DNA of 64,000 nt from Alternaria dauci. Its lineage: Eukaryota; Ascomycota; Dothideomycetes; Pleosporales; Pleosporaceae. Location: assembly GCF_042100115.1 (NCBI RefSeq), contig NC_091273.1, forward strand, positions 1,178,001 to 1,242,000. The letters run 5' to 3'. This document shows positions 7,574 to 62,899 of this stretch, piece after piece. Both the position numbers and the translations under genes were made by a program. Position 1 is the first letter of the stretch. Each line of letters opens with the position of its first letter. The notes beneath the pieces were generated by a model that was not told the origin of the DNA, ran no database searches, and worked only from the letters and a program-made list of their open reading frames with translations.

Positions 7574-10500
7574 TTATGCCTTGTCCCACCGTTTCATCCC
7601 CTCTTTCTTCATCGTATCATACCAGTTCCTCACATACTCCAATCCTGCGTGCGGACCATAAATCTGCTTCTCCCATTGTGGGATCGGAGCTTTCAACCCC
7701 GTTTCATCTTCGCACTTCTGCATCAGCTCACTGAGAGTGCCGCCGCGGTCAATCACATTGTCAGTACTATATCCCTCTATCGCGCGCTCTTCACGTCTCT
7801 TGCTGCGAAGTGTCGAGGTGGCAACCGTATCAACAGTGAAAGTGTGTGGATCGACGACGACACCATAATTGTCCTTGGCACCTTCGACGGTGACTAGATG
7901 GCGATGGACTTCTTGTGCTACGCGTTCGGGAGGGCGCGTGAGAGGATCGCCAAGACCTCCACCACCCCAAGTGATCCATTCCAAGACGTCGCCTAAAGGT
8001 TTTAGTACTGATCAAGAATATGAAAAGTCCTGAAAATTACCTGGATAAACGTGGATGTGATCCTGCTTCGACTGACATATTTCGATATTGTCCTTTTCCG
8101 CTGCTGTGCCATAGCTGTTGTTGCGATACAGAATTTTCCTCGATCTGCTTCCCGGCTTACCACCGTTAACACCCCATGCTTTAGTCAACCACCGATCATC
8201 GTGCGTGCTGACATCACCTTCGCACAACCATCTGTACAATGTTCTCTGTGCATTGCCTCCTCTGTAGAACCCAGCGCCTCCAGAGTCCGGCAACGCTTCA
8301 TTGGCCTCAATAATGACGGGAAAGTAGAGCTCGATGTTCTCAGCCGGGATGGACTTGATGGCTGGGAAAAGACAGTGACAGTCTGGGCCGTCGCCGATCG
8401 GTCGCGCAGGTACACCGCCAAAGCCGATCTGGTAGAGCAGGTAGAATTCGCCGTTGGGCTTGAAACCGGAATAGAAGAGGTGTGGTGAGTCGGAGAAACC
8501 TGCTGCACATCGATAGGCAGGATTTTGTTGACCAAAGAGCGCCTGTATCACGTCCATGATACGACCGAGGAGATGGGTACGGCAACTGACAGCTGCTGGG
8601 CGGACGGGGCGAAGAATGGTGCCAGTCGGGATCTTGATGTCGAGTAAATCATGGAAGCCGTCGTTGACAACCTGTCGAAGTTAACTCATTTCTTGTATAG
8701 CTTTTGGAAGAAGAATTCTTACTGCAAAAGGGTCGTGAATAGCCAGCAGATGATACCCGATAAACATCTTGAACATGGTGATCGAGAGGTAGAAGTTCAT
8801 CGACGTAGTTGACTGAGGTGATGTGCCGTCCCAATCAAAGATGAGTTTGCCATCTTGCTTTCTCATTGAACAAGTGATAGCGTATGGACCGACGCCTTGT
8901 CCATCGTCGTCAATGAAGTCGGTGAAGCTCGATACTTTATCGCTGATCTTCTCATTGATGATCCTGCTAATGGCAAGCTTGTTCTGCTCCAGCAGATAAT
9001 CTGTGGCTGCCTCATAGACCTCGAGGCTATAGCGTTCACAGAGCTCGGTGACACGAGTAGCAGCTGTCCGACAGGCGGTAACGAGCGCCATCAGGTCACT
9101 CTGGAACCAATCTGGGGCGCGAGAGTTGCGAAATATTACCGTTGCAAGAGTTTCGTTGTAAACACCGTTTGCGTAGAGCTTAACGATAGGAATTTGAAGG
9201 CCGTCTTCGTAGATGGTACTGGCATTGATGCTCATAGAGCCCGGAACTTTCCCTTGTACATCAGTTATGTGTCCGAAGTTTGCCGCCCAGCCTATGAGCT
9301 TGTGCTGATAGTATATAGGAAGTAGCACGATAACGTCGTTGAGATGTGATACGGCACCATCAATTTGATAAACGTCGTTGGTCACGAAAACGTCGCCTTC
9401 TTCAACCGTGCCGTTCCAGCCGTTCAGGAATTGCTGTATGAAAGATCCAAATTGACCAACGAGCATCTGTCCACGTGTATTAGTGATCACGTTGAACTCG
9501 TCTTGCTGTTCTCGGATCGCCGGGCTCATGGCGCAACGCAGCAGAAGTGCATCCATCTCTCTCCTGATAGACCCAAGCGCAGAGGCAATTAGAGTAGCGA
9601 TAATGGGCTGCTCTTTAATCATATCTTGAGCTGACTCTCTAGTATGTACGGTCTTTCGTGCTTCCTTCTTCTCAGTAGGCCAGATGAGTATGTTACCCAT
9701 AGAGTCGATCTCTCCATAGAAGCCGGGCAATATAAGCGTGTTCGAGTCCATCTCAGTGACAACCGCTGGTCCATGAATGACTTTTCCAGCGCCCCCAATC
9801 TTGGAACGGTCCCAGAATGTGGCTTCGACCTTTTTGCCGTCCCAGACGATTGGCTGCTTCGCTGTAATCGCGCCTTCCCAAGGCTCAGACGTACGAGCAT
9901 GTTCTAGGGGTTTGAAGGCCACTTCCTCAGAAGCATCAACAACCTTGGCACGTAAGCGCATCGTCTCCATTTCTGCATGCGCGTGTGAGAATCCGAACTG
10001 ATGTTGATGGGCTTCATTGAACTTGTTACGTAGAATGTTCACGAGCTTGTCTGAGTTTTCGAGCTCACTAGAAGTCAGATCAACAGTAAGTGTCATGGCT
10101 TGGCCCTTGTAACGCATATCTGCTTGGTATATGACGTGCAACGCAGCATTCTCATCTGCAAGCGAGGTTTTCATCGTGTCTACACCACTAGCCTTGAGAC
10201 TGAGTAATGTCTCCTTGAGCTCGAGCTCTGTGATATCTGAGAAGGCGCGAATATATGTGCAGCTCTGTTCGTGGGACATCTTGGTGATGGCATCGCCTTG
10301 TGCACAAAGAACGCCAGGAGAGGGAGGGACGATGACGGGCCAGGAACCAAGAAGCTGGCCTAGGGCGTTACCATGAAGCGGACCAGCACCACCGAGAGCA
10401 ACCAAGGCGAAGTCGCGCGGGTCGTAACCTTGCTCAACAGAGACTAGACGAAGAGCCCCATGCATGGATTCGTTTACTAGGTCGATGATTCCCTCAGCCG

Positions 10501-11990
10501 CGGAGGCCGTATCAAGGCCCATTTGCTTAGCAATTGACTCAACTGCAGCAGTAGATGCAGCAACGTCCAATTGGAATTTTCCGCCTAGTAGTTTCGAAGG
10601 AAGACGACCCAGCGCCAAGTTTGCATCAGTTACAGTCGCTTGGGTTCCACCCTTGCCGTACGCCGCAGGACCGGGTGTAGCACCACTAGACTCTGGCCCG
10701 ACACGCAAGGTCTTTGTAAAGTCGTTGAAAATGGCAATGGAGCCGCCGCCGGCGCCTACAGTGTTAACATCAACACTTGGGGCGCGGACGGATAAGTGGC
10801 CGATGGCGGTTTCTCGTCGGATGATAGCATCGCTGCCTGAGAGTAAAGCGCAGTCGGTAGAAGTTCCTCCCATGTCGAAGGTGATGAGGTTCTTGTAAGG
10901 TGTGTTTTTGGCTACCAGATGTGAGACTGCCTTGACGCCACCGGCCGGACCGCTCATGAGGATGCGCACTGGTGTCTCGCCAGCGAGGTGAACCGACGTT
11001 AGATCGCCATCAGATTTCAGGATGCGGATTGTATCGGTGTCATCCGCAAGCATCTTCTGCAGGTTCTGCATGTAGGTTTTGACTACAGGCTTGACGATGG
11101 CATTCGCGGCCGTCGTAACGGTGCGCTCGTATTCCTGTATCTCTGGCAATACGTCTGTGGAGGTAACGATCTCAACATCTGGGCCAAATTCACTAACCAG
11201 GATGGCTTTGATGCGTTCTTCATGCGTGCTGTTAGCGAAGGAGTTGATGAGCGATACGGCGATGGCTTGAGGCTGTTGTCGCTTGAGATCCTGTAAGTCT
11301 TTTCGTAATTCATCCTCGTCCAACTCGTGGAATATGTCACCATCAATCTTGATGCGCTCTTTGACTTCGACGGTTCGCTCGAGCGGCACAAGAGGCTCGG
11401 GCTGTTCATAGTGCATCCAAGCACCTAGCCCGCCTGGTATTTGGCTGCGTCTTGTAGCCAATATGTCCTTGTGGCCCTTGGTGACAACGAGGCCGCATTT
11501 GGCGCCCTTGCCTTCGAGCACGGCATTGGTGCCAGTGGTGGTGCCATGATGTATATACTTAAACTTGCCGTCCCAGTCGTATTTGTCTTTTAATATTCTC
11601 CGTGCCTGCTGCACGCCTTGGTGCACGCCAATGGACTGGTCTGTCGTGTTGGTCGGCACCTTTGTGCGTACTGCCTCGCCGTTGGGCGTGATGACGCACA
11701 CTAAGCTCGGTTAAACGGTGAAGTATGTATACTTTGTACAAAAGGGCCGTACCGTCGGTGAAGGTTCTGGGGTCGTGTTAGCCGCATCCCATGACCTAGG
11801 CCGGGTCGAGGCAGGCAGTTGAGGTGGTGGCAGCTGCAGACTCGGGGAACGTCTGCATGTTCGTCGCCGTGGCTAAGAAGAAGCTAGCGAGCGGGCGTCT
11901 TCGCATGGGTACACGAGGCAAAATTCAGTGGGAAGCTGGCATTACTCACCCTCCAACGTCAACACCCAGGCGGTAACCCGGCGCAGCCAT
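7574..11990 (-). CDS. Fused hydantoinase A/B (5-oxoprolinase-like) protein
   Basis: Five exons on the minus strand (11990-11950, 11766-11753, 11700-8723, 8671-8041, 7992-7574) join in frame to 1360 residues. The N-terminal ATP-binding motif DVGGTFTDV is assembled from three exons, the middle one only 14 nt long. Residues up to about 700 form the HyuA/oxoprolinase half (FDMGGTSTDCAL, GAGGGSIA, ALGGAGPLHG). From about residue 710 the HyuB half follows (REMDALLLRCAMSPAIREQQDE, GHITDVQG, SGGAGFYRGG). Such proteins open cyclic amides such as 5-oxoproline or hydantoins using ATP. The length is slightly above the usual 1280-1300 residues of eukaryotic 5-oxoprolinase. Substrate is not decided by sequence. 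A cytosolic location is likely, since no signal peptide is seen. Confidence 0.9.
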
Positions 11991-27524: not shown

Positions 27525-29633
27525 TCAGGTCAACAGGACAGGCTGAAGACGCCTCTTGTGCAGTTTAGTCGTAGAGTTTCCTCCACCACACACGCCCTCT
27601 GGAAGATCGAAGCTGTTCGTCCTTGCTGTGGGCGAATAGATCGCACCCTCACCCAGACCCCTCTTGGCGAATCCACTCCAGATCTCGCAAACGTTTTTAC
27701 CTCCCGTGAGCGCCTCGTCCGCATCGATAATGGCATCGCGAGCAGAAGTAAAAGTAGGGTTGCAAGGCTGAAGTGCCATGCCGTCCATGACGAGCTTCAA
27801 AGCGAGGTACTTGCCATCAGTCGGCACACCGTTGTCATCAAAGGCAGGTAGCCAGCCGTCGTTCTTGCCGTACTTGTCGATGAGGTTCCAGAGGACCTCG
27901 TAGAGCATAGACGCCCAGATGTTACCGATGGGGTGGACCTTGATGTAGAAGTCTGCGTCTGAGTATACCTGAGGATTGAGGTTCAGGTCTGTGGAGTACA
28001 GGTAGTTTCTGATGCCAAACGGACTACCACTGATCCAGTCTCCTATTGGGTAGTTGGTGGCGCGAGTGTCACCGGGATTGAGACGGATAGCTGTGGCGTA
28101 GAAATCGCTCCAGCCTTCTCCCATGCCACCGGATTCCAGAAGAGATAGACATCCCGCGTTTGCTGGTCCACCGGTCAGACGGTTGGAAAGGCCGTGCGTG
28201 TATTCGTGGATCACAACACCGGCGTCGAAACTGCTGTCGCGGTTAGGAGTCGTGGCGTTCCAGATGTACATGCGCATGCGTGCTGGCTGACCATCGGGGG
28301 GTGTGGCAAAGTTGGCGTTGTTCATGCCTGCGCCATCCTGGGCGTTGAGGTAGACAAAATCCTGACCAGCGCCACCAGCGCCGTTGTTGTTGATCTCAAA
28401 GTTTCCAGCCCTCTCGTTGAAACCCAGCGTGTGCAGAACGTCATGGTACTTGTTGGCGGTGTAGAAGAGTTGGGTGATCGAGGCGTTAGCATAGCCTTTC
28501 CAGTCGGTATCGTTGAGTGAGAATGGATAGTCAAAGGTCAGAGACTCGCTGACAGGACGGGGAAGATTGAGTAAACCGCTGCTCACGTTGCCCCAGTTGG
28601 TTTGGGCAATACCGTTGTTGCCACGGGTAGTCTTGAATAATGTGGTGCCATCGCTGTGGTATCCGAATTCACTAGCTTTGGAAGAAAAGTCATCTTCCGT
28701 CAATTGACGGTCTCCATCAAGCGGATCGTTGATACCCCAGGGGCTGGAAGTTGTTAGCAGTGACCAGCCGCGTTGTAGTCATTGTTACTTACTAGACGTT
28801 GTAGGTAGCGTCCGCAGAGTAATCGACAACGGCATGTACCTTCTCGCCATCTTCCGCGTCAACATATGTCAGAAGCCAGTTGCTCATGACATCAGTCTCA
28901 ACTCTCCAGGTGAGAGCAAGCTTTCCCTCCTCATCAATAAGGTAGACGAGACGTGCTTCAGGCTCACTGACACATCCAGTGGTCTGCTTGATAGTATAAG
29001 TCTCGGAAGCTTCCTTCGCCTCAGCAATAGCCGACTCGGCGGAAATAGGAAGGCCAAGAGCATTGACAGCCGATTTGAGGGCGTTGACAGGCGCGGCAGC
29101 ATCTCTTTTGCTCAGACTTGGCGGTGCTGGAATAGCACCCTTGTAGAAGGAGTTTCCGAAAGAGAAAACATTGCCGTCACGACCGATCTGCTCGTTGTCA
29201 GCCAAGATGTCTGAGGGATGAAGAATATATTTGTGTTGGGTAGTACTGGGCGAAGTACAGGGGTTCACCAACTTACATTGACGTTGAAGTCGGCTGTGTC
29301 GATATCAAGACCATTGGCGGTCTGCTTGAAGTAGAAGTGAGCTACTCCGTTATCGCCGACATAGGAGTCCTTGACAAGACGAAATTCAGCATCGGGGATC
29401 GTAGCCTTGACAAGATCGGTGGCAACGTCCTCGGCACTAGCACGCTTCGTAAGTGTGTTGATGTTGGGATCAGCCACAACTTCAGCTGTGTTCTTGTATG
29501 AGGCGGCGTGCTTCAGGCGGTAGGAGTCCAGGTCGACAGCACGACGAGCAAGCGTGTTTCGGGTGGGTTGGGGGTGGCCATAGACGCTGATGGCTAACAG
29601 CGAAGCCAGCGACGCGAGGAGGACGGAACGCAT
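27525..29633 (-). CDS. MEP: Extracellular metalloproteinase, fungalysin M36
   Basis: Three exons (29633-29277, 29187-28793, 28743-27525) join to 656 residues. The protein begins with a signal peptide ([19 protein letters not shown]), followed by a fungalysin/thermolysin propeptide of about 220 residues. The zinc-binding HEYTH lies at residues 430-434, with GMGEGWSDF downstream giving the third ligand. Joining at the second junction restores DATYNVYPWGINDP, the typical start of mature fungalysin. I placed the first acceptor after GAGCAG because it gives [18 protein letters not shown]36 enzymes are secreted as inactive precursors and degrade host or substrate proteins such as collagen, elastin and chitinases. 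The mature end carries a short basic extension (LHKRRLQ) of unknown significance. Confidence 0.93.
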
Positions 29634-58180: not shown

Positions 58181-59858
58181 TCATCTGCCAAATCGCTTCA
58201 GTTCCCACACCCTCAAGGCAGGGTAGACGATTGCAGCCCATGCGAAACCGACAAAGTTGCCCATCTGACCACGTTAGCTACAACTGGCTCAAGATTCCAA
58301 CATTTACTTACATCGGCTCCATGAGTTCCAACCTGCTTAGCGATTGGTCCAATGTACCAAACTTGAGCCATACACATGACTGCGCCAATCCAACCAATGA
58401 CGAATGCTACAAAAGCGGCGATACCTAATGGCAGCTTCTTCTTCTGGTTCCAGACTTGCCAGTTGAAGCCAGTCTTGCGACGGAAGATCAAGTGCTCCTC
58501 CAGGATAAGTGCAATCCAGACCGAGACCCAATAGCCCATGAGGGCCAGGAAGTTGGTGAAAATCTCAGCGAGATGGGCGCGTCCGGCTAGTGCACAGACT
58601 GTGTAGATGACCACACCAATAGTATTCCAAACCACTCTTGGCACGGCACCCGCGTAGCGCCCCAATATCTGCGCATCAATACCGGAAGAGTATGTGGGGA
58701 CTATGAGATTGGCGACAAGACCCAAGGCAACTACCACACCGCAGAAGGAACCGAACGCCCCGAGTGGTTTGTACGCTTCTACTATGAGAGCACCTTGCGA
58801 TATCCCATACGCGGCTTCCCAGTCCGCGTTGGTCAGCATACCGCATGCGAGGCCGATACCCAAGATGAAGGCAAAGGTGAAACTGCACATCAGACCCAGC
58901 ATGGTCATGCTGAAAATCCTGATTGACGATGCGTGTTCCGGATAGTAAACAAAGTAGTCTGCCGCTCCGCCGCCATACGTGATAGCTGCGGCGAGTGTCA
59001 AACCGAAGAAGCTGATGCGATTGCCAGTTATAGTGTCTGGATCTGCATCTCCGTGAGACTCAGAGGAGACGTTGAATTGCGGACCGGCGACGCCGGCTAG
59101 AATGCAGAGCACAATGAGTTGCGGTAGCCAGGCCCAGCGCTCGTAGTAGTGGAAGATCTGGTAGCCAAAGGTAGTGATAGCCCACGCTATGATGGCTACG
59201 ATAATGATGCCAACTACGACGGACATGGAGTTGCCCGAGACAGCGGAAAGAATCTGTCCGGCGACTACACAGTCAATCATGCCTAAAAGGTGCGTTTACG
59301 AAGTCAGTACAAGTCTCACATGCAGTTGGTACGGGGACATGTCCTACCGTAGCCGAGCAGGACAACGATGTTGAGCAGGACAATGACCTTGGATGGCCAC
59401 CAGCCTGTGACGTATCGTGAGAAGATCATAGTCCGATTTCCTCCCTTTGGACCAAACGTCGCGATGTAGGCCACCACTAGACAGCCAACGAATGCACCGA
59501 AAACGCCGAGCAGGCAAGCATCAAGGAAACCAAGGGCAAAGACGGCAGGGCCGAGCATGCCCAGTGTAATGTTGTTCGCTGCAAGATTGACGCTGAACCA
59601 CATGATAGCCACTTGGGAGTAGCCAAGCAGGCGCAAGTCCTGCCGCTCCTCTGGCTCGACGCGTTCGATGCCGCGCGCCTCGAGGTTGTACGCGACAAGC
59701 TGTCTCTCAAAGGATTTCCACATGGCCTGCCATTTGCTGTGTTGTGACAGGCCTTCATTCTCGGTATCTCGTGCGCTGATAGGCAGTCGGGGCTCGTTAC
59801 TCGCGTGCGGCGCAAAGACGGATTTCTTGTCCTCGGGCGGGTTCGTGTTGGGGTCCAT
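58181..59858 (-). CDS. NCS1-family permease, likely thiamine-related transporter under TPP riboswitch control
   Basis: Three coding exons (59858-59348, 59282-58312, 58264-58181) join to 521 residues; introns are 65 and 47 bp. About twelve membrane segments follow a 100-residue hydrophilic start. NCS1 landmarks include ERVEPEERQDLRLLGYSQVAIMWFSVNLAANNITLGMLGP, FGPKGGNRTMIFSRYVTGWW and YFVYYPEHASSIRIFS. NCS1 carriers import purines, pyrimidines, hydantoins or vitamins with a cation at the plasma membrane. The domain alone would suggest a purine-cytosine permease (Fcy2 type). The TPP aptamer in its 5'UTR intron argues instead for thiamine or a thiamine precursor, since fungal TPP riboswitches control thiamine synthesis and uptake genes. 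Confidence 0.9.
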
Positions 59859-59867
59859 GACGACGAC

Positions 59868-60026
59868 CTAAAGCCATTAGTAGCAGCCGAGGGGCGAGGG
59901 AAGCAAAGCATGAGTCCTTTCGCAGGCTTTAACCTGATCAAGTTCAGACCGTATATCTCAGATCGCCGCCAACAAAGACGTTGACGAGCGAACACCGGCC
60001 TCATGCGTTTTACTATCTGACGTTAC
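59868..60026 (-). other. 5'UTR intron of the NCS1 permease
   Basis: The donor is AAG/GTAACG (G at 60026), with a second possible donor GTAAAA at 60013. The branch site TACTAAT is at 59882-59876 and the acceptor CTTTAG ends at 59868, nine bases before the ATG at 59858. The TPP aptamer fills most of this intron. Splicing joins a leader free of the upstream ATG to the start codon. Confidence 0.65.
59908..60006 (-). ncRNA. TPP riboswitch (THI element) aptamer
   Basis: On the minus strand the P1 stem pairs GCATGAG (60006-60000) with CTCATGC (59914-59908), a perfect 7-bp match. Inside are CTGAGA (59961-59956), the pyrimidine-recognition element; GAACTTGATCAGG (59945-59933); and GCGAAAGGA (59923-59915), which contacts the pyrophosphate. 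Order and spacing match the eukaryotic TPP aptamer. It lies within the 5'UTR intron of the NCS1 permease, between donor candidates (60026, 60013) and the branch point. In fungi, TPP binding alters splice-site access and so controls whether upstream ATGs remain in the mRNA. Confidence 0.93.
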
Positions 60027-61040
60027 CTTGATCGGGCATTCTGCTACTCGGAAGCATCCTGGCTATGTTACCGTACTTGTAAGGAGACAAGAAGGCGTTC
60101 TGGGAATTGACAATCAAGAATGAGAAAATGAATTGAGAATTGAGTATCAATGGAACGCGTGAGAGATTGGCTTGACTTTGGAGGCGAGGGCGAAGAGCGA
60201 AGGGGACATGATCGAGAACCCCGCTATCGTGCCGTCCCGAAAAACTTGCGCCTTTCCCGTGTCTTGGAACTCTCACGTAATGAGATCGTTTCAACTTGCT
60301 CACCATCTTCGAGCTAGAACTGAGGGTTCGCGTATGCGCATCACACACGCGTGGTGATGGTGGAGGTATCAATGCGAACCTCTGTGGCCATAGCTTGCTC
60401 CAGTTCACGCGGTGCAACTTCGGGTGCAGCCTTGCCCAGCCAGCATCGGCGCGTCAATCTTAAAACGACACGCCATCTCTGCCGGAGCAACAGCTGCGTT
60501 CCGCAACCACGGCAAGAGAACTGCGGTGTCGCCGACGAGCACAGACGGCCCATAGCGAGGTCGCCTTACGCATCCAGCAAGTACACGCGGCGCTCTTATC
60601 ATCTTCGGCGTTTACCAATAACCTGGCTTGCATCGGCCCTTGCTCGACCTTTCACACCATGCTCTTTCCAGCCCGCTGCATACTGGCCCTGTCCGTTCCT
60701 GCGTTTAGCATTTGTTGTGTCACTGCCATACCTTGTTGCCCCTAGAGCTAGTTCTCTATTAGGCAGGTCGGTATCTGCTTAGTGGCACAGGGAGATCGGA
60801 TCACCAGCATCAGCAAAACGCAACACGCCGATATTAATGTATCTCGAGTATAATTACCACCCCCGGTTCGTCCTGTGGGACAATGCGGGGGAAGGCAACG
60901 GAGGCTAAACCAGATAGGACAACACTATAGATATGTACCCTAGTAAGCACTCTCGGATCAAGCAATAAGTATCTGTCTAGGCGCGTCAGTCTTGGGCAAG
61001 CTTCACATTCATCCGAACCATTCTTTGGAGCATCTCCACC
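60027..61040. other. Promoter region between the NCS1 permease and the amine oxidase
   Basis: This 1-kb divergent spacer carries the permease 5' leader. An ORF at 60351-60782 plus (143 codons) is Arg/Ser-rich with no signature and is not called. No RNA gene other than the riboswitch was seen. Confidence 0.45.
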
Positions 61041-62899
61041 ATGAGGTTGACAAAAGCGGCGCTTATGGCCGCTGGTCTTGCGCCAAGACTAACCTTCGCT
61101 GCGCCTGCGACTCCTGGGCGAGAGAGCAACAGCACATGCAGAAAGACTACTGTCGCGATCATGTACGTTCTACTACGAAGAAACAGTCAAATTCGCTAAC
61201 CATAGGTAGAGGTGGTGGGGTGGCTGGTATCACAGCGGCAGTAAGTCCAAAAGAACATATCTTCTACAGAGGACGAAGCCGGCAAGACTGAGCGGCTACC
61301 GGAAATGCTTGTGTATCCAACTACTAACAAGCTTCAGCAAGCACTCGCCAACCAATCCGTCACTGACTTCCTGATTCTGGAATACCAAGATCACATTGGC
61401 GGCCGTATGCGAAACACAAAGTTTGGCTCTGATCCCAGCGGCAGCCCCTACACCGTCGAACTAGGCGCAAACTGGATCTCTGGGTTGGGTGAAGATACCG
61501 TCGACGGCCCGGAAAACCCAGTCTGGACATTCTCGAAACAAGTCAATCTTTCTAGTCCAAATTCTGACGCCTTCTCTATCGCAACTTACAACGAGACGGG
61601 TGCTGTAGATTATACAGACATACTAGATGAGTTCGAAGAGTACTGGAGCATCTTCGAGCAAAGCGCTGGTACTATACTGTCAGAGAACTTGCAAGACAGA
61701 AGTTTTCGCGCCGGCCTTTGGCAAAGTGGATGGAGACCGAAGGGTGATCCTGCACGCAAGGCCGTTGAGTACTATCTATGGGACTGGGAGACTGCCCAGG
61801 TGAGTCCTTCCAAAAGATAATTTCGGTCGTACATGCTGATAGGTCCGCTTTATAGACACCAGAGGAGTCGAGCTTTGTCTACGGTATCACAGGATACAAC
61901 CTGACTTACTACGCTTTCTCTGAGATCAGTAACTGTATGAACCTGAATCGCGAAGAATGATCGAGCCTAACTAAACTTCCCACAGTCTGTACTGACCAGC
62001 GCGGTTTCAACACATGGCTCAAGCATCAAGCATCCAAATTTCTGAAGCCCGATGATCCACGCCTCCTCCTCAACACTGTCGTCTCAAATATCACCTACTC
62101 AGATACCGGAGTACACATCACCACCTCGGACGGCTCATGCGTAGAAGCTGACTATGCCATCTCTACCGTCTCGCTTGGTGTGTTACAAAACGACGCCATC
62201 ACATTCGAGCCTGAACTTCCCGAATGGAAGCAAGCCGCCATCGCCACGTTCTCATTCGGCACGTATACCAAAATCTTCTTCCAGTTCAATGAAACCTTCT
62301 GGCCAGATGATAAGCAGTTTTTCCTTTACGCTGATCCAACGACACGCGGATACTACACAGTTTGGCAGAGCTTGTCGACAGAAGGCTTCTTACCAGACTC
62401 TAACATCATCTTTGCCACACTTGTCGACGAACAATCGTATCGCGTCGAGGCACAAGACGACGAGACCACAAAGGCAGAAGGCATGGCCGTTCTACGCAAG
62501 ATGTTTCCTAATACCACTATCCCAGAACCGATTGCGTTCACCTACCCGCGTTGGTCACAAACACCATGGTCTTACGGATCCTACTCCAACTGGCCTGCTG
62601 GCACCACGCTCGAAATGCATCAAAACCTTCGCGCAAATGTAGGCAGACTATACTTTGCTGGCGAAGCAACGAGTGCGGAGTACTTTGGCTTTCTGCACGG
62701 CGCGTGGTTCGAGGGTCAAGAGGTGGGAGAGCGTATTGCAGGGCAGATTACTACAGAGTGTGTCAATCGTGAGAGCGGATGTGGAGCGTACAACCGCTAC
62801 GAGGTTTTGCAGGGAACCACAGAACTGTGGGAGGTCAATGCGTACAATGGAATGGGGACGAGTCCGTTCTTTGTTGCCGACACTGGGGAAGCGGAGTAG
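61041..62899 (+). CDS. Secreted FAD-dependent amine oxidase (polyamine oxidase family)
   Basis: Five exons (61041-61162, 61210-61240, 61338-61799, 61856-61934, 61986-62899) join to 535 residues. The second exon is only 31 nt. A signal peptide (MRLTKAALMAAGLAPRLTFAAPA) leads into TVAIIGGGVAGITAAQAL, the FAD-binding GxGxxG, which is assembled from exons 1-3. Later come LILEYQDHIGGRM, VELGANWISG, YAISTVSLGVLQ, and RLYFAGEATSAEYFGFLHGAWFEGQ, the FAD-contacting C-terminal motif. Such enzymes oxidise spermine or spermidine to aldehyde, peroxide and smaller polyamine. Many Asn-X-Ser/Thr sites fit a secreted glycoprotein. The first acceptor was set at GTAG/AGG because it alone restores the glycine motif. 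No peroxisomal signal is seen. Confidence 0.9.

Follow-up and report, generated by a model that had tools for sequence, protein, structure and literature searches.

A thiamine pyrophosphate riboswitch aptamer in the leader intron of an NCS1 permease gene of Alternaria dauci, with a predicted role in splicing

The window analysed here is a stretch of 64,000 nucleotides (nt) of contig NC_091273.1 of Alternaria dauci. Near its end it carries an NCS1 permease gene, and the 5' untranslated region (5'UTR) of this gene contains an intron with a thiamine pyrophosphate (TPP) riboswitch aptamer. The gene and the features of its leader are on the minus strand, and positions are those of the window unless a locus is named. 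The coding sequence (58181..59858) is modelled in three exons (59858-59348, 59282-58312 and 58264-58181), across which the frame stays open, and encodes an FCY21/TPN1-like permease of 521 amino acids. The frame of exon 1 matches the Pfam family PF02133 (41.4 bits; gathering score 23.5), while the frame of exon 2 alone matched no Pfam family. The whole protein matches the NCBIfam NCS1 model TIGR00800 with 141.1 bits (E 4.1e-41), short of the 353.1 bits that this model sets as its cut-off. Among 8000 scored candidates, 995 proteins were homologous to the permease at E <= 0.001, the best being a protein of Alternaria ventricosa with 90% identity, and a sequence search of the PDB returned no match. 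The homologues listed carry PF02133; the names among these 120 proteins include FCY21, purine-cytosine permease, NCS1 nucleoside transporter and vitamin B6 transporter, and many are called hypothetical.

The aptamer (59898..60009) was detected with Infernal cmscan as a full-length match to the Rfam model RF00059 (positions 1-105 of 105), on 60009-59898, with 54.3 bits and an E-value of 7e-10 over a stretch of 601 bases or 7.5e-8 over the window. The first-pass annotation of this DNA, made from the letters alone, had claimed three TPP aptamer motifs in the correct order and a perfect P1 stem of 7 bp. All were located: CTGAGA at 59961-59956, GAACTTGATC at 59945-59936 and GCGAAAGGA at 59923-59915, with P1 formed by GCATGAG (60006-60000) and CTCATGC (59914-59908) in seven of seven pairs. 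Stems P1-P5 are present, and the J2-3 CTGAGAT and the J4-5 GCG are intact. The RF00059 alignment marks two non-standard pairs, an extra 18 bases lengthen P3, and no base aligns with the P3a columns of the model. When the single strand is folded, the aptamer stems form with a z-score of -3.05, and only 1 of 200 shuffled sequences was equally stable. Thus the annotation's proposal that the 5'UTR intron of an NCS1 permease gene holds a TPP aptamer, for which it had named an Rfam search of the minus strand and a fold of the region as checks, is backed by Rfam, by the gene structure, by Pfam and NCBIfam and by the homologues.

The match lies exactly at the RF00059 gathering score, which is 54.3 bits. 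A default gathering run listed no match, whereas the genome search marked the same aptamer as over the cut-off, so the score is on the threshold to one decimal. By score the aptamer is therefore a borderline pass right at the threshold, whereas its E-value is not marginal. This score, together with one departure in L5 (UUAAAG, against UAAU in the three further copies from this genome, a difference of one base), would fit a relic or a chance resemblance without function. We consider this highly improbable, given the E-value over the window, the perfect P1, the open permease frame downstream and the occurrence of the element on the same gene class in other fungi. In addition, this copy is the highest-scoring of the four aptamers found in the genome, and the other three are at genes for NMT1, THI4 and an SSS transporter.

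These other aptamers come from a search of the 34.9 Mb genome (10 contigs), in which 49 of 1228 first-look candidates were scored with RF00059, so that the count is a lower bound. The genome search gave at least three matches, and a fourth was obtained by scanning the THI4 locus directly. The hosts are the NCS1 permease gene, an SSS transporter gene (locus L002), NMT1 (locus L003, PF09084) and THI4 (locus L020, PF01946). The three further copies score 40.6, 39.2 and 31.2 bits, all short of the gathering score, so that this threshold misses three of the four aptamers found and retains the NCS1 copy alone. The lowest score belongs to the THI4 aptamer (L020:1170-1274; 31.2 bits, E 0.0085), in which CTGAGAT and GCG are nevertheless intact. 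The P3a columns are empty in all three, as they are in the NCS1 aptamer. Nine further NCS1 loci were found in the genome; taken with at least about 0.9 kb upstream of the match, none of them gave a TPP aptamer match.

In the SSS gene, the aptamer lies just upstream of an exon resembling a urea transporter (L002:1649-2947), and a probable first coding exon was placed by eye about 700 bases upstream. The exon received no name from Pfam or NCBIfam and no match in a PDB sequence search, and its homologues are named as urea or Na+/proline-type SSS transporters. A PX domain (sorting nexin-3) is also present in several of the homologues listed, which may be gene-model fusions with a neighbour.

The aptamer of the permease gene is enclosed by the splice signals that the first-pass annotation had described. 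A donor AAG/GTAACG (the slash marks the exon-intron boundary) is at 60026 (60021..60026), a branch-site-like TACTAAT at 59876..59882 and an acceptor TAG at 59868..59870, nine bases before the start codon at 59858, defining a predicted intron of 159 nt. Beyond that annotation, the leader has further donor-like sites upstream (60071..60076), a small upstream open reading frame (uORF) and a complementarity between donor and aptamer. The upstream sites are CAA/GTACGG at 60076 and ACG/GTAACA at 60071, which agree with the consensus CAG/GTAAGT at six and five of nine positions, respectively, compared with six of nine for the downstream donor. Joined to the common acceptor, they would give introns of 209 and 204 nt. 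Between the donors is a segment of 45 nt (60027..60071), an alternative part of the 5'UTR, with ATGs at 60057 and 60039, and either of the longer introns would remove both. Use of the downstream donor would keep them and is predicted to create a uORF of 33 codons plus stop (59797..60057; 60057-60027 joined to 59867-59797) that overlaps the main ATG out of frame. Another upstream ATG, at 60209, opens a uORF of 20 codons and was rejected as a switch because it is present in all modelled isoforms.

The seven bases before the downstream donor, GATCAAG (60027..60033), are the exact complement of CTTGATC (59936..59942) on the 5' side of P4 in the aptamer, and are proposed here as an anti-donor pairing element. 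No other perfect complement of at least seven bases exists between the aptamer and the 390 upstream bases. When the 250 upstream bases were shuffled, a complement this long next to a donor-like site appeared in 14 of 1000 trials. Viral and bacterial/archaeal contig collections were also searched for DNA of relatives (2 and 63 pattern matches, respectively), and no relative was confirmed among these matches.

Taken together, these features have the layout of a Type I fungal TPP riboswitch, here as sequence features only: a 5'UTR intron, two donors with a uORF between them and an AG before the start codon. We consider it likely that such a switch represses this gene, for an NCS1 transporter of thiamine or a thiamine precursor, at high TPP. 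When TPP is scarce, the aptamer would be unliganded and its P4 strand would pair with GATCAAG and hide the donor at 60026, the spliceosome would take the upstream donor at 60076 or 60071, and the permease would be translated after removal of the whole leader intron. At high TPP, the ligand would clamp the aptamer and free the donor at 60026; the mRNA would then retain the ATGs at 60057 and 60039, and the uORF of 33 codons across the permease start would block translation. This reading is supported by its agreement with the Type I definition (PMC5882874) and with the mechanism recounted for Neurospora crassa THI5/NMT1 (PMC5997356), and also by the lack of a TPP match at the nine other NCS1 loci.

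A partial twin of this arrangement is found within the same genome. The NMT1 leader (L003:1371-1725) has a donor CTCGATCAA/GTAAAAG whose exon side has a partner in the aptamer (25 of 1000 shuffles), and upstream a donor-like TTG/GTACGA followed directly by an ATG. Should the first of its two candidate acceptors be used, a uORF of 41 codons would overlap the main start. A wider proposal would be that NMT1 and the NCS1 gene share one cassette, by common descent or repeated recruitment, composed of a GTACG donor, an upstream ATG, a GATCAA/GT donor, its P4 complement and an overlapping uORF, and that the permease is a dedicated carrier of thiamine or its pyrimidine precursor beside the riboswitch-controlled SSS carrier. 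We advance this only tentatively, as a possibility with the balance somewhat against it.

Several observations weigh against the two-donor switch. When 60080-59866 is folded without constraints, the donor helix has a probability of only about 0.01, and forcing it costs 3.3 kcal/mol without ligand (-61.5, against -64.8 for the aptamer fold). In the aptamer fold, the last exon base and the first intron base of the donor at 60026 are paired (0.01 unpaired), so that this donor is closed and the upstream donors are open, the reverse of what the model would require at high TPP. At equilibrium, then, the donor is predicted neither to be masked when TPP is absent nor to be free when it is present, and transcription order, proteins or local folding would be needed. 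The uORF geometry is also weak evidence alone: of 5000 shuffled versions of the 45-nt segment, 50% contained an ATG and 32% gave an overlapping out-of-frame uORF. As for NMT1, the second acceptor would place the upstream ATG in frame with the main one and leave no overlapping uORF, and CTTGATC occurs twice in its aptamer stretch (P3 and P4), which makes the match with the donor easier to obtain. The GATCAA element was not found in the 400 bases examined at THI4 or the 700 at the SSS (DUR31-like) gene, where the best donor-abutting complements are of 4 bases (769 of 1000 shuffles) and 5 bases (489 of 1000), and it is thus upstream of only two of the four aptamers.

The weakness of the donor helix and the pairing of the donor at 60026 in the aptamer fold would suit a functional aptamer that acts through intron retention, or through masking of another splice signal, instead of a choice between two donors. 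Thiamine raises the unspliced RNA of Candida parapsilosis DUR31 (PMC5997356), and the unspliced leader of the permease also contains upstream ATGs, including those at 60057, 60039, 60004 and 59911. On the other hand, the upstream ATGs between the donors are flanked by donor-like sites, and, as in NMT1, a perfect complement of the aptamer lies directly beside the downstream one of these sites; for this reason we judge retention or such masking to be unlikely. By the two-donor switch that we prefer, the leader element probably lowers the output of the transporter through splicing when vitamin B1 is plentiful.

Regarding the substrate, the names of the homologues, FCY21 purine-cytosine permease and vitamin B6 transporter among them, would suggest a carrier of purines and cytosine or of vitamin B6, in which case TPP control would tie nucleobase or B6 uptake to vitamin B1 status under either splicing model. 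These names are the sources' own and imply no test, and just two of the nine other NCS1 loci match the permease at E 1e-3, with about 30% identity. In addition, TPP riboswitches normally sit on thiamine genes. Donovan et al. predict transport of thiamine or a metabolite for similar transporters (PMC5997356). A nucleobase or B6 carrier therefore seems rather doubtful to us, and thiamine or a thiamine precursor is retained as the candidate substrate.

Elsewhere in the window, flavin amine oxidase frames (PF01593) lie divergently from the permease on the opposite strand (61245-62899), a fungalysin M36 metallopeptidase frame is at 27525-28778, and a long hydantoinase/oxoprolinase frame is at 8681-11710. 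Two other RNA model matches were dismissed as sub-threshold: a snoRNA at 31259-31170 (21.9 of 45 bits) and CRISPR-DR58 at 60288-60252 (15.4 of 38 bits).

The element in the permease leader is real by its sequence, the earlier reading of it was correct, and it is ordinary for this group of fungi; TPP binding and the effect on splicing are predicted from the sequence. The transporter class concerned, for which the presence of a riboswitch implies a part in vitamin B1 economy, gains an Alternaria-type example, together with a concrete splicing model that has a partial twin in the same genome. Both the pairing of a transporter with a TPP aptamer and the Type I switch have already been published for related fungi (PMC5882874, PMC5997356, PMC11683625). 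Mukherjee et al. defined the Type I splicing switch with transporters included (PMC5882874). Donovan et al. reported TPP riboswitches on predicted nucleoside transporters of Stagonospora nodorum, Xylona heveae, Aspergillus nidulans (AN4526.2) and one further filamentous fungus, described these proteins as somewhat similar to Tpn1 and Fcy21, thought that transport of thiamine or a metabolite was likely, and credited Moldovan et al. 2018 with further members (PMC5997356). A survey of 2024 counted 26 sequences of this class, TPPsw-NUC, and noted that some Aspergillus and certain Dothideomycetes have NUC in place of UREA, with both types present in Hortaea werneckii (PMC11683625). The class is called nucleoside transporter or Fcy21/Tpn1-like in these works (PMC5997356, PMC11683625). 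Transporter-linked aptamers are a regular part of the fungal repertoire, not the much rarer case that the first-pass annotation had supposed. The main texts of PMC5882874 and PMC11683625, which were the parts searched for the name, do not mention Alternaria, and the present gene may already be on record. A search for literature on riboswitches and thiamine in Alternaria gave nothing on the subject by title or abstract start, and in the parts of the literature searched no experimental test of the NUC class was found.

Among the closest known systems is the TPPsw-NUC class (AN4526.2, S. nodorum), with which the permease gene shares the aptamer class, the Fcy-type transporter and the ascomycete or Dothideomycete setting. 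Orthology with its members is suggested by the resemblance to Fcy21 and Tpn1, a likeness by description and not by member sequences. The present case differs in the host genome and in that NUC-type and SSS urea-type aptamers coexist. In N. crassa NCU01977 and Candida DUR31, too, an intron of a transporter gene contains the TPP aptamer, and the gene at L002 is of the same protein family as these two. In bacteria, cytX is under TPP control. Its product, an NCS1 hydroxymethylpyrimidine transporter, belongs to the same superfamily as the permease but is only a distant relative, since the permease scores 32.6 bits with the CytX model TIGR02358, below the cut-off of 309.85. In mechanism, the counterpart is the Type I switch of N. 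crassa NMT1/THI5 (PMC5882874, PMC5997356), which likewise has two donors, a uORF between them and a complement of the aptamer at the second donor; in A. dauci the same arrangement of candidate sites precedes a transporter gene, where it is predicted to act in the same way.
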